A stretch of 64,000 bases of DNA, from contig CALXLX010000051.1 of assembly GCA_944389315.1 (NCBI GenBank), positions 1-64,000 of the forward strand, given 5' to 3'. The stretch's first letter is position 1. Each line of letters opens with the position of its first letter. The notes beneath the pieces were generated by a model. It was not told where the DNA came from. It was given only the letters and a program-made list of their open reading frames with translations, and did no database searches. Shown here piece by piece: positions 28,605-50,592 of this stretch. Source of the DNA: an uncultured Opitutales bacterium (lineage in GTDB: Bacteria > Verrucomicrobiota > Verrucomicrobiia > Opitutales > Intestinicryptomonadaceae). The position numbers and the translations under genes were made by a program.

Positions 28605-29351
28605 CTATCTGAAATCGTCGTCGGAATCCATGCGGGAGTCCAAATCGTCGGTGTAGTCCCCGTATTCGTCGGTATCGCCGACATCGTCGTCGTCCCAATG
28701 CATGGTCTCGTCCTCCTCGATGTTCTCGTCGTCCTCGTCGGGGAGATCCTCTATGTCGTCGTACTTGTCCTCCTCGTCATCCTTCTCCTCGTCGTCCTCG
28801 CCCTCGTCCTCAAGGGAATATCCGTCGGGCACGTACTCGAGTATGTCCATGACCTCCGAAAACGCGTGTATGGCCTTGCCCTCCATATAGTCGTTCTGGT
28901 ACTTGTCTCGCACCTGCTCCTCAAGATCCTCTATCGTAAGGGGAACCTCAAAGTCGAAGCAGTCGTTGAGCATCTTGACCTGCAAACGCGTTATGTGGTC
29001 CAAAAACTCGGCGTAGGGAGACCTGTCGTCGTCAAGATTGTCGGGAAGAAGAAACAGCTGGGAGTCGGTGTCGAACACGGAGTCCTTCGAGCGCACAAGC
29101 TTTACGCCGTCGTCCCCTGATTTTGAATCTATCGCAAAGGTGTAGAACGCCTCCTCAACAAGGCTCTCGTCCAGCCCGTATTCCTTCAGCCCCATAAGGG
29201 TGTCTATCATGTGGTCGGCCTGCTTGGGGTCTATCACGCTCAGGCCGTCTATGTCCCAGTTTACCTTGTCGGAGGTTTCCGTAACCCACCAGTTCAGGTC
29301 GTTGCCGAGCCTCGCCTTGCACCACGATAACTTTGGAGATTTCTTAGACAT
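28605..29351 (-). CDS. Acidic-tailed cytoplasmic protein of unknown function
   Basis: A 248-residue protein without a signal peptide. Residues 1-175 look like a folded, mostly helical domain (LSWCKARLGNDLNWWVTET at the start); the final ~70 residues are almost entirely Asp/Glu (YSLEDEGEDDEEKDDEED and following). Such tails bind metals, basic proteins or mimic nucleic acid. No family recognised. It lies between an inositol-phosphatase-family gene and the Mla operon on the same strand; one speculative partner is the Lys-rich histone-like protein encoded at 42.4 kb. Confidence 0.65.
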   Translation of the reverse strand: MSKKSPKLSWCKARLGNDLNWWVTETSDKVNWDIDGLSVIDPKQADHMIDTLMGLKEYGLDESLVEEAFYTFAIDSKSGDDGVKLVRSKDSVFDTDSQLFLLPDNLDDDRSPYAEFLDHITRLQVKMLNDCFDFEVPLTIEDLEEQVRDKYQNDYMEGKAIHAFSEVMDILEYVPDGYSLEDEGEDDEEKDDEEDKYDDIEDLPDEDDENIEEDETMHWDDDDVGDTDEYGDYTDDLDSRMDSDDDFR

Positions 29352-29469
29352 ATCTTATTCTTTGTTTTTGCAGCCCGCCCGGGCACTCCGCCGGCGGCGC
29401 GTCGTATTTTTATATTGCGGGGAAAGTGAACACATTTTTATCCCGGGCGCAACCTATTTTTAAGCCCGC

Positions 29470-30243
29470 CTACGCCGCCCCTTCGTTTAGGGACTTTATC
29501 GCGTAATCGTGCAGGGCCTTCGTGCAGGCGGCAACGCAGCCGCGCTTGCCGAGATTGTCCGCGCCGTCCCAGTCGGAAAAGCAGATGCCCGCTCCCTTCA
29601 TGACGGGTATGAGCGGAACCAAGTCCCAAACCTCGAGGCGCGCGTCGAGCATGAGGTGCGCGCAGCCCCTGGCTATCAGCATGTACCCGAAGCAATCTCC
29701 CCAACTGCGAAATATGGCCGCCCGGTTTATAAGATTGCGGAAGTTCTGCGCGTTGTAGTCCTCCTCGGCATGCCTGTGGTCGGAGGTCAGCACCGTGGCT
29801 TTTGCGATGTCCTCAAGGTCGGATATTTTCACGGGAGAGCCGTTGAAAGTGCAGGTCTGGCAGTCGCCCACGCATCTTTGCTTCAGTATGGGCTGGTCTA
29901 TTACGCCCACTATAGGCTCCTTATTTTTCATAAGGCCTATTATCGTCCCGAAGAGCGGAACTTTGCTTATGAAGGATTTTGTCCCGTCTATGGGGTCTAT
30001 CACCCATACGTACTCGGCGTCTGTGTTTTCGTTTCCGTACTCCTCTCCTATTATGCCGTGGGAGGGAAAGCGCTTCTTTATCGCCTCGCGGAGCATCAGC
30101 TCAGTGTTCTTGTCGACGAGGGTTACGGGGGAGGAGTCGGCCTTGTAGTCGACTTTGATATCCCCGCTGAAATTTTTGGATATGTATTGGCCGCTTATGT
30201 CCGCCAGTTCGTTTATAAAATTCTTGAAAACCGATAATTCCAT
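29470..30243 (-). CDS. Inositol-monophosphatase-family phosphatase, HisN-like
   Basis: A 257-residue enzyme of the Mg-dependent inositol monophosphatase superfamily. Metal-site motifs are GEEYG, WVIDPIDGTKSF and ARLEVWDLVPLIPVMKGAG. The segment RSWGDCFGYMLIARG resembles the histidinol-phosphatase (HisN) subgroup rather than SuhB or CysQ. hisD occurs at 55.2 kb, not adjacent. The start at MELSVFKNFINE is preferred; an ATG seven codons upstream is in frame. Histidinol-phosphatase activity is inferred from motifs. Confidence 0.78.
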   Translation of the reverse strand: MELSVFKNFINELADISGQYISKNFSGDIKVDYKADSSPVTLVDKNTELMLREAIKKRFPSHGIIGEEYGNENTDAEYVWVIDPIDGTKSFISKVPLFGTIIGLMKNKEPIVGVIDQPILKQRCVGDCQTCTFNGSPVKISDLEDIAKATVLTSDHRHAEEDYNAQNFRNLINRAAIFRSWGDCFGYMLIARGCAHLMLDARLEVWDLVPLIPVMKGAGICFSDWDGADNLGKRGCVAACTKALHDYAIKSLNEGAA

Positions 30244-47167: not shown

Positions 47168-47228
47168 GAGAAAGTATGCTTGAAAGCGGAGCGCCTTTGG
47201 ATTTTTATCTTTGTCTAAAACGCATAAA

Positions 47229-48683
47229 ATGCAGCAGGATTTGTCCCAGTCTCAGAAGGTGGAGCAGAGGTTGTCGTTGACGCCCCAGCTGAAACGGAGT
47301 CTGGAGATTTTGCAGGTGCCGTCGCTGGAATTGGAGGCTCTTGTGGCGAGGGAGCTGAGCTCAAACCCGCTGATTGAAGTTGTCGGCGCCGGCGACGAGG
47401 GCATAATATGCCCGCTAGATCCGCAAAAACAGCCCAAAAGCGGGCTTTCCGAGGGGGATTTTGACGATTCCCCCGATACCTCGTCCAACGGCGGGGAGAT
47501 AATACCGCGCGGGGAGGACTACTCAGAATATATGGAGGATTCCGGCGCGGATTCCCGGGAGGCAAACTCCCGGCGCGACTACATATTCAATTCCGTGGAG
47601 CAGAGGGAGTCCGCCATAGAGAATATATTGAGGCAGGCGTATCTCGACGCTCCCGACAAATCCACCGCAAACGCCTGCGCGTTTCTCGTCTCTCTGATGG
47701 ACGAACGCGGTTTTGTGCCCGAGGACGCTCTCGACAGAACCGAAAAAGCCGGATTCTCAAAGAGCGAGGCCTCGCGCGCGCTCGAGCTTCTCAGGGGCAT
47801 GGCGCCTTCTGGCATAGGCGCCTTCGACATGCGCGACAGCCTCATGCTTCAGCTTGAGCACATGGGCAGGGTGGATTCTGTCGCCTATAGGATTTTGCGC
47901 GACCATTACCAGCTTTTGCTGAAGCGCAGGATTTCGGAGATAGCCTCTCTAATGAGGATAGGCACGTCGGAGGTGGAGGAGGCAATCAATTCTCTATCCG
48001 AATTGAAAACCTCGCCGCTGAGGGATTTTGAAAGCCAGCAGAGCGACTATGTCTGCGTAGACCTCGTAGCCCGCCGCGGGGAGGACGGCCTGTGGCGCGC
48101 GCAGCTTACAAACGAGCGCATACCCGAGCTGCGCATAAATACGGACTACCGCAATATGCTCGCCCTCGGCAAACTCGGCAAAGAGGCGCGCGCGTACGTC
48201 GGGGAAAAGACCCGCGAGGGAAGGTTTTTAATAAACGCAATAGCCCACAGGCAGCGCACGCTAAAAAATATAGGAGACCAGATTTGCATGAGGCAGTCGT
48301 CCTTCTTTTCTGGCGGCGGCTTCGGCGCGCTGAAACCGCTGACTATGCAGACGGTTGCGGAGGCTCTTGATTTGCATCCCACCACCGTAAGCAGGGCCGT
48401 CAGCGAAAAATACATGCAAACGCCTTTCGGGGTTGTTCCGCTTAAGAGGTTTTTCGTATCTTCGGTTTCCTCGGCAGACGGCACGGACGACGTCTCCAAC
48501 GCAGCGGTAAAGAGCCTGATAGAGGAGATTATCGGCGGTGAATCCGCGGCGAATCCGCTGAGCGATTCCGAAATAGCGGATATTCTGAAGAAGTCGCACA
48601 ATATGTCAGTTGCCAGAAGGACCGTCGCAAAATATAGGGACAGCCTGGGTATACCTCCCAAGTCTATGCGGAGGAGATACTAG
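47229..48683 (+). CDS. rpoN: RNA polymerase sigma-54 factor
   Basis: A 484-residue RpoN. Region I is Gln/Leu-rich (QQDLSQSQKVEQRLSLTPQLKRSLEILQVPSLELEALV), followed by an acidic region II (about 70-115), the core-binding domain, a helix-turn-helix (TVAEALDLHPTTVSRAVSEKYMQTPFGVVPLKRF) and the C-terminal RpoN box VARRTVAKYRDSLGIPP. It directs transcription from -24/-12 promoters with enhancer-binding activators; none is encoded in the window. An in-frame TTG lies six codons upstream of the chosen ATG. Confidence 0.96.
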   Translation: MQQDLSQSQKVEQRLSLTPQLKRSLEILQVPSLELEALVARELSSNPLIEVVGAGDEGIICPLDPQKQPKSGLSEGDFDDSPDTSSNGGEIIPRGEDYSEYMEDSGADSREANSRRDYIFNSVEQRESAIENILRQAYLDAPDKSTANACAFLVSLMDERGFVPEDALDRTEKAGFSKSEASRALELLRGMAPSGIGAFDMRDSLMLQLEHMGRVDSVAYRILRDHYQLLLKRRISEIASLMRIGTSEVEEAINSLSELKTSPLRDFESQQSDYVCVDLVARRGEDGLWRAQLTNERIPELRINTDYRNMLALGKLGKEARAYVGEKTREGRFLINAIAHRQRTLKNIGDQICMRQSSFFSGGGFGALKPLTMQTVAEALDLHPTTVSRAVSEKYMQTPFGVVPLKRFFVSSVSSADGTDDVSNAAVKSLIEEIIGGESAANPLSDSEIADILKKSHNMSVARRTVAKYRDSLGIPPKSMRRRY

Positions 48684-48766: not shown

Positions 48767-49480
48767 ATGAATTCTTCGGAAGAAATTTTAGAGAAAATTT
48801 CGCCCGGGCAAATCCGCAGCGCGCTGCTGGCGGACACATGTTTCGGGAGGGTTTCGGTCGGTCTTGTGTCCGGCGGAAAATTTGCGGTGGAGCTGTCGGC
48901 CGAGGGCGGCGCGATGGAGAATTTCTTTCCGCTGCTGTCAGAGCTTTCCGAAAAATCTTCCGTGCGATTGTCTTCGATAGAGGCCTTCGGGCTTTGCGAC
49001 GGGGTCGGGTCGGTGCTCGGCATAAGGGTTTCTTCGGCGGCGCTTTCAACCATGGCGCTGGCCTGCGGCGGGCGCAAAACATTGTTTACATGGAACCTCT
49101 TTGACGCCGCCAGGGCAAACGCCGACGAACTGTGCAAAAGCGGCGGGGATTACGCCGTGGCGGCACCGTCTCGCAAGAATTTTATAAACGCCATATGGCG
49201 CGAAGGCGGAGTGCGCGGTGAGGCCGAGCTCGAATGCGGGGCATTCGCGGAAAGATTCTCGGCTGGCAAGGCGCGCCTATTCTATATAAACCAAAGGCCC
49301 GTTTCCGACGGCCGGCTCTCGTTTCTCGAAACGGCCGAGACCATGCGGCTTTCTTTGGAAGATGTCTGGAAATACGCCTGCGAGGGCCTTGTTGAAATGC
49401 GCCGCAGGAGCATTCCGCCCGACGCTCTGCTGCTGTCGAAAAGGGAATACGTCAAATGGAACTCTCAAGCACGCATATAA
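48767..49480 (+). CDS. Divergent TsaB-like protein (t6A synthesis)
   Basis: A 237-residue protein. Its first ~120 residues align in pattern with TsaB: LLADTCFGRVSVGLVSGGKFA (canonical ALDTSTxxxSVAL), AMENFFPLLSELSEKSSV, and SIEAFGLCDGVGSVLGIRVSSAALSTMALA (canonical GPGSFTGLRIG). TsaB is the scaffold partner of TsaD in t6A37 synthesis. The rest is divergent. The neighbouring alanine-racemase-like gene overlaps its end by 25 bases; tsaB and alr are neighbours in many bacteria, which supports the call. Confidence 0.65.
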   Translation: MNSSEEILEKISPGQIRSALLADTCFGRVSVGLVSGGKFAVELSAEGGAMENFFPLLSELSEKSSVRLSSIEAFGLCDGVGSVLGIRVSSAALSTMALACGGRKTLFTWNLFDAARANADELCKSGGDYAVAAPSRKNFINAIWREGGVRGEAELECGAFAERFSAGKARLFYINQRPVSDGRLSFLETAETMRLSLEDVWKYACEGLVEMRRRSIPPDALLLSKREYVKWNSQARI

Positions 49481-50592
49481 GGTGCTCCGTAGGGATAGAT
49501 CTCTGCGCACTGGAACGCAATCTGGGCAGGCTTAAAAATCTGCTCAGCGTGTCGCAAAAATACATAGCGCTCGTCTCGGCGGACGCTTTCGGCTTCGGCG
49601 TTGAGGCGGCCGCCGTGCGCCTTATGCTCAGCGGAGCGGACGCCTTTGCCGTGACAAATTTGTCCGAGGGCGAGCGCGTGAGGGGAATAGGCGAGGGGTG
49701 GCCAGTAATAGTTATGAGCTCCTCGCTTCCGGGAGAGGAGGAGTTCTATTTCAGAAACGAGCTTCGGCCGACTCTCGTTGGCGTCGAGGAAATAGAGCGC
49801 TTTGCGGCTTGCGCAAAGCGGCTCGGGGAGAAAATAAAGGTTCACATGAGGGTTCCCAGGGCGGAGGATTTCTCTCTGCCCTCCCGCGAGGAGGCCCTTA
49901 AAATGCTCGATATGCTTCTGAGCGGAACTTTGCCTCTCGAGCTTGAGGGAATGTGCATAGCCGGCATGGGCAGCGGCGCCCCGGAGGAGGGCGAGACTCC
50001 GGATTTCGAGTTTTTGAAAAAGGCCGATTCGGCGTTGAGGGCGGCGGGCAGGAGAATACTCGTGCACCATAGCGACACTTTTAACCCGGCTTTGTTGCCG
50101 CCGAGCTTTGAGTCGGCGTTCAGGGCGGGGCTGGTGCTTTTTGGAATCAGCCCTAAGGAAGGGTCCATACTCGGAAATTTCAGGCCAGAACCCGTCATGA
50201 CGTTCAGGGGGGCTGTCAGCCAGGTGAAGATGCTCCCCAAGGGGGCGACTGTCGGCTACAACAAGACCTACACCCTTACGAGAGACTCCAAAGTTGCGCT
50301 TCTTTCCATAGGCTATGGAGACGGTCTAAGGCGCAATGCCGGGGAGCGCGGGCGCGTTTTGATAAACGGCAAGAGCCTGCCCATAATAGGCAGGGTGTCT
50401 ATGGACCAGGCGAGCGTCGATGTCACCGATCTTCCCGACGTGCAGGTGGGCGACGAGGCCGTTTTGATAGGTTCGAGCGGGAACGAGAGCATAAGCATAG
50501 AGCAATACTGCGACTCTTTGGGCATAAGCCCCGCAGAGGCTCTCACTTCAATCACAAAGCGCGTTCCCAGGTATTATAAGACGGTATATTAG
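49456..50592 (+). CDS. Alanine-racemase homologue lacking the PLP lysine
   Basis: A 378-residue protein with the full layout of alanine racemase (TIM-barrel plus C-terminal beta domain). Retained motifs include ADAFAVTNLSEGERVR, FRAGLVLFG, VGYNKTYT, LSIGYGDGLRR, GRVSMDQASVDVTDLPDVQVGDEAVLIG and ITKRVPRYY. However, the cofactor motif reads ALVSADAFGFG (residues 38-48) instead of VVKADAYGHG: the Schiff-base lysine is Ser41 (codon TCG) and the next pocket Tyr is Phe45. The TGMGRLG loop, the histidine of the THF motif and the terminal active-site Tyr also appear replaced. It is therefore unlikely to be a PLP racemase. It overlaps the tsaB-like gene by 25 bases. Confidence 0.85.
   Translation: MELSSTHIRCSVGIDLCALERNLGRLKNLLSVSQKYIALVSADAFGFGVEAAAVRLMLSGADAFAVTNLSEGERVRGIGEGWPVIVMSSSLPGEEEFYFRNELRPTLVGVEEIERFAACAKRLGEKIKVHMRVPRAEDFSLPSREEALKMLDMLLSGTLPLELEGMCIAGMGSGAPEEGETPDFEFLKKADSALRAAGRRILVHHSDTFNPALLPPSFESAFRAGLVLFGISPKEGSILGNFRPEPVMTFRGAVSQVKMLPKGATVGYNKTYTLTRDSKVALLSIGYGDGLRRNAGERGRVLINGKSLPIIGRVSMDQASVDVTDLPDVQVGDEAVLIGSSGNESISIEQYCDSLGISPAEALTSITKRVPRYYKTVY

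Follow-up and report, generated by a model that had tools for sequence, protein, structure and literature searches.

Alanine racemase (Alr) is a textbook homodimer, a cell-wall enzyme and an antibiotic target. Its active site is built from the barrel of one subunit and the C-terminal domain of the other, as described for the S. aureus enzyme (PMC3245724). There, the first monomer holds the phosphate of pyridoxal 5′-phosphate (PLP) through Tyr43, Ser204, Ile222 and Tyr354, and the second monomer contributes Tyr265′, Tyr284′ and Arg290′ (entryway) as well as Met312′ (carboxylate contact) (PMC3245724). Lys39 and Tyr265′ serve as the racemisation bases, and the Y265A variant of the G. stearothermophilus enzyme (GsAlr) gained aldolase activity while racemisation was largely reduced (PMC6411801).

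We analysed a window, i.e., the whole stretch of DNA, of 64,000 nucleotides from an uncultured Opitutales bacterium, which encodes an Alr homologue of 378 amino acids, here called A, that is full-length over both Alr domains. It was compared within its host family (f1), which comprises 19 genomes; 18 of these were readable and one (G009), reading N wherever sampled, was excluded. Residue numbers refer to GsAlr (1SFT) in a MAFFT alignment, the reference being identical to PDB 1bd0/1sft over its whole length. The gene and its informative codons are the following:

49456..50592, plus strand: alrA (protein A), a dead PLP barrel with an intact C-terminal domain, based on the ORF, motifs, Pfam/NCBIfam matches, conservation and dN/dS
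49576..49578, plus strand: Ser41 codon TCG, at the place of the PLP lysine Lys39 of GsAlr; Ser or Ala in 18/18 A proteins
50257..50259, plus strand: Tyr268 codon TAC, corresponding to the catalytic base Tyr265′; present in 18/18 A, deleted in 16/16 B (the second homologue, introduced below)
50332..50334, plus strand: Arg293 codon CGC, corresponding to the entryway residue Arg290′ (PMC3245724); Arg in 18/18 A, Ala or Ser in B
50401..50403, plus strand: Met316 codon ATG, corresponding to Met312′, a substrate-carboxylate contact (PMC3245724); Met in 18/18 A, Leu in B
50533..50535, plus strand: Ala360 codon GCA, at the place of Tyr354, which binds the PLP phosphate of its own subunit (PMC3245724); Ala in 18/18 A, Trp in B

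Protein A matched PF00842 with 143.8 bits and PF01168 with 64.5 bits, and its 192.3 bits against TIGR00492, the NCBI curated alr model, exceed the cut-off of 168. Aligned to GsAlr, it carries the exchanges Lys39 to Ser, Tyr43 to Phe, His45 to Phe, Arg136 to Phe, His166 to Ala, Asn203 to Asp, Ser204 to Thr and Tyr354 to Ala, and retains Arg219, Tyr265, Tyr284, Arg290, Arg309, Met312 and Asp313. ORF and motifs thus read as given in the preliminary description, according to which the PLP lysine and most of the cofactor pocket had been lost while the motifs of the C-terminal domain were well kept; the catalytic residues of that domain are indeed intact in the alignment. A self-sufficient Alr chain should possess both Lys39 and Tyr265, of which A has the latter and lacks the former. 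Judged from its sequence, A is a protein under selection that cannot act as a stand-alone PLP racemase. The barrel of A also possesses invariant motifs of its own across the family. An AlphaFold2 prediction of the A monomer, based on a two-sequence alignment, reached a pLDDT of just 41 and was set aside.

Two genes precede alrA on the same strand:

48767..49480, plus strand: tsaB-like gene, the ancestral neighbour of alr, with a weak TIGR03725 match
47211..48683, plus strand: member of gene family c2, the upstream gene in the order c2 - tsaB-like - alr

The c2 gene, recognised by its sequence, is presumably rpoN (sigma-54). The tsaB-like product is very diverged (31 bits against TIGR03725, cut-off 69; no Pfam match), and the last 25 bases of its gene, counting the stop codon, overlap the start of alrA. 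A role of A tied to this neighbour had been considered initially. However, the order c2 - tsaB-like - alr occurs also in outgroup families, there with an ordinary alr, whose place A holds in the host family; the arrangement is therefore ancestral, and a functional link between A and TsaB was rejected.

In the host genome (G000; 2.27 Mb, 54 contigs, 91% complete), each Alr domain has two matches and no more, one in A and the other in a second homologue, B, which is encoded outside the window:

contig C47, near 28858-29928, minus strand: alrB (protein B), second Alr homologue

The genes for A and B do not share an operon, a point against the pairing proposed below; in genus g2, B lies mostly between yraN (UPF0102) and an MTHFR gene. 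With 237.9 bits, the B of the host genome passes the TIGR00492 cut-off of 168 as well. Its motifs VVKADAYGH, VDTGMGR, SHLSSAD, HNSAA and VRVGLLQYG are kept, and so are Lys39, Tyr43, His45, Lys129, Arg136, His166, Asn203, Ser204 and Arg219; position 354 is a Trp, as it is in most outgroup Alr. A deletion of about 15 residues, by contrast, has removed the loop with the catalytic Tyr265 (VxYGxTY in other Alr), no substitute Tyr occurs in the region of the deleted loop, and Met312 is replaced by Leu. B hence lacks the Tyr265 expected of a self-sufficient chain. Directly after the PLP lysine motif, Gly46, conserved in the outgroup, has become Cys or Ser in B (AYGHC or AYGHS; e.g., L053:3859-4929, minus strand). 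A PDB profile search with B returned no match at a very strict cut-off.

The losses in the two proteins are mirror images of each other throughout the family. Sixteen B sequences were available, 13 of them full-length and three split over contig ends, with the N-terminal pieces of the split ones carrying Lys39. All 18 A proteins have Ser or Ala at site 39, which answers the question raised at the outset of whether Ser41 is conserved among relatives, and all 16 B proteins have Lys there. Tyr265 shows the reverse, being retained by the 18 A proteins and missing through the deletion from the 16 B proteins; likewise, Met312 is Met in all A and Leu in every B. Lys39, Tyr43, Arg136, His166 and Ser204 are lost in all 18 A proteins and retained in the 13 full-length B proteins; position 43 is Phe in each A protein. 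Taken together, the barrel of B and the C-terminal domain of A contain the full set of Lys39, Tyr43, Arg136, His166, Ser204, Arg219, Tyr265′ and Met312′, according to the residue alignment and the subunit ownership reported for the S. aureus enzyme (PMC3245724).

This pattern was also found without hand-picked residues, using all columns conserved to at least 90% in the ordinary Alr of other families. Among the barrel columns, 22 were kept only in B and 4 only in A; among the C-terminal domain columns, 10 were kept only in A and 4 only in B (Fisher p = 0.001). At a threshold of 95%, the B-only columns of the C-terminal domain were 243, 352 and 355, and position 354 behaved similarly. Since residues 352 and 354 belong to the same subunit's site as Lys39 (PMC3245724), the split tracks which chain owns a given part of the active site, and not simply where the domains meet. 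Arg309 is an exception and speaks against a simple rule: it is listed as an entryway residue of the same subunit and is better retained in A than in B.

The cells appear to depend on this pair for D-alanine. A clear D-Ala-D-Ala ligase (Ddl) was found in 16 of the 18 readable family genomes, and MurF in G002 and G017. None of the 19 family genomes contained a D-amino-acid transaminase scoring above the cut-off of TIGR01121. Ddl being present, D-alanine should be needed, and A and B are its only recognisable makers. As a candidate for a transaminase bypass in the host genome we considered the nearest protein, which turned out to be a branched-chain aminotransferase (IlvE-like; 444 bits, cut-off 363). 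The expectation that the cell has another D-alanine source was borne out in so far as a second alr exists, yet this gene lacks the other catalytic half, and no D-amino-acid transaminase scored above the cut-off. In the host genome there is no intact Alr, just the two homologues, each with half of the catalytic residues.

We conclude that the alanine racemase of this family is very probably an obligate heterodimer of A and B, in which one of the two active sites works. Association of the two proteins, racemisation of alanine by the resulting complex and its supply of D-alanine to the cell wall are inferred. In this heterodimer, the barrel of B would hold PLP on Lys39, together with Tyr43, Arg136, His166, Ser204, Arg219 and the strip around Trp354, and the C-terminal domain of A would complete B's site with Tyr265′, as the opposing acid/base, and with the contact through Met312′; the second site, composed of the barrel of A and the C-terminal domain of B, would be dead. 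An A-A dimer would bind no PLP and a B-B dimer would be without the second base for racemisation. As A has no PLP site but keeps the residues given to a partner, and B the reverse, only the mixed pair should work. The arrangement would have originated from a gene duplication, after which each copy lost the opposite half of the active site that they share.

There are precedents for a dead paralogue activating its partner, namely the prozyme of AdoMetDC in T. brucei (PMC5201418) and deoxyhypusine synthase (PMC3663545). By analogy, B, whose PLP barrel is complete, might perform the chemistry via a substitute base, and A might be solely an allosteric or stabilising pseudo-subunit that donates no Tyr265′. 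We consider this very unlikely, as it leaves the invariance of Tyr265′, Tyr284′, Arg290′ and Met312′ in 18/18 A unexplained and the deleted loop of B offers no Tyr to take over.

The same four residues bear on the suggestion, already contained in the preliminary description, that A is a conserved pseudoenzyme with a different role. Conservation and selection were confirmed, but a pseudoenzyme with an unrelated role should not selectively retain partner-acting residues, and in A these are invariant; half of a heterodimeric racemase is the likelier identity. In such a scenario, a B homodimer alone would be the racemase or catalyse a changed, e.g., aldolase-like, reaction, for which the aldolase activity gained by GsAlr Y265A (PMC6411801) is a precedent, and the invariant motifs in the barrel of A would fit a function of its own. 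The cells would, however, be left without a known D-alanine source despite their Ddl, and neither the preserved trans-acting residues of A nor the co-occurrence of A and B would be accounted for, making this explanation highly improbable. The proposed heterodimer could in addition be a reaction switch, with B-B carrying out another PLP reaction such as retro-aldol cleavage (compare GsAlr Y265A) until A binds and converts B into a racemase. This seems unlikely; if such a switch existed, D-alanine supply would depend on the proportion of A to B.

The heterodimeric reading agrees with the distribution of the two genes. A occurs in 18/18 readable family genomes and B in 16/18, always alongside A. 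In G004, A was found and B was absent from the readable sequence. This genome also lacks MTHFR, YraN, Ddl and MurF there, and at least 40 kb of it is masked, so that, like G009, it was counted neither for nor against the pairing. G007, which is 79% complete, has A only. The B of G003 is split over two short contigs, and its C-terminal part (L056:1-629) contains an in-frame TAA, which is either a sequencing error or the beginning of decay. For the two closest genomes, dN/dS came to 0.024 (A) and 0.073 (B). These values are rough, given that synonymous sites are nearly saturated, but A and B are each clearly constrained in the barrel and in the C-terminal domain. The single TAA in B of G003, on a short contig, could be taken as a hint that the unusual sequences are assembly or sequencing artefacts or degenerating copies, in line with the early caveat that relatives might carry Lys at the site and the copy in the window be degraded or erroneous. 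Comparison excludes this, as 18 assemblies are concordant and the dN/dS of A, about 0.02, is far below 1, so that we give an artefact practically no weight. A further scenario, in which the cells import D-alanine from their environment and the two genes persist as relics whose roles are new or fading, is scarcely credible: reduced genomes exist in other families of the order and an environmental supply is conceivable, but the strong purifying selection on A and B, the frames intact in nearly all genomes and the long conservation do not fit relics.

In the phylogenetic tree, A and B each form one clade with 100/100 support, with long stems of 2.84 (A) and 1.48 (B) changes per column, whereas the branches inside the clades are short. 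Each clade holds all three genera of the family, from which it follows that A and B both predate the family's radiation. In the outgroup Alr of the first alignment set, Lys39 and Tyr265 occur in all sequences covering these sites. Across the order, 301 of 373 genomes match PF00842, and nearly all of those outside the family have one match. We searched for the same split in 15 genomes of the order with two or weak PF00842 matches and found none; all copies covering the sites keep Lys39 and Tyr265. Two genomes of about 1 Mb in family f26, G149 (L141, L153) and G181 (L143, L154), each encode two very diverged Alr paralogues, of the KSDAYGLGA and KGYGYGLGL types, which keep Lys39 and Tyr265 where covered and may differ in specificity. 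A YggS-type (PLP homeostasis) PF01168 match is missing in G000, G001 and G005, and most other family genomes have one.

If the heterodimer is real, it would be the first case in nature of an alanine racemase that has to be a heterodimer; among the matching open-licence papers listed, none describes such an enzyme by title or abstract. A lineage that divided a shared active site over two duplicated genes would constitute a clean case of duplication, degeneration and complementation within one catalytic centre, and two genes plus a D-Ala auxotroph would allow a direct test of how obligate heteromers originate. The finding also carries a warning for annotation: the curated model calls both half-enzymes “alanine racemase”, which hides their dependence, and each seems redundant in metabolic models.

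Among the described systems, deoxyhypusine synthase of trypanosomatids (DHSc/DHSp; PMC3663545) is the closest functional parallel that we found, as an impaired and a dead paralogue are both needed, similar to what we propose for A and B. Unlike A-B, it is an unrelated eukaryotic heterotetramer, is described as working by allosteric activation and is not PLP-dependent. The AdoMetDC/prozyme pair of T. brucei resembles the proposal in that a dead paralogue is required for activity, but there the prozyme relieves autoinhibition allosterically and the catalytic chain itself is intact (PMC5201418). Ornithine decarboxylase is, like Alr, a fold-type III enzyme whose active site is shared between subunits. 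Tobias and Kahana (1993, cited in PMC5518511) reportedly placed this site between the subunits by means of mutant hybrids. These laboratory hybrids, as well as antizyme inhibitor, a regulatory pseudoenzyme, differ from a natural obligate pair such as A-B would be. Nearest by descent are Alr and DadX themselves (fold type III; GsAlr, 1SFT; S. aureus, PMC3245724), with which A and B share, by sequence, the two-domain full-length architecture. In the known homodimeric Alr, both sites work and each chain has Lys39 as well as Tyr265, whereas A and B possess one of the two residues each; the site proposed to form between them would nevertheless consist of the same residues in the same geometry.
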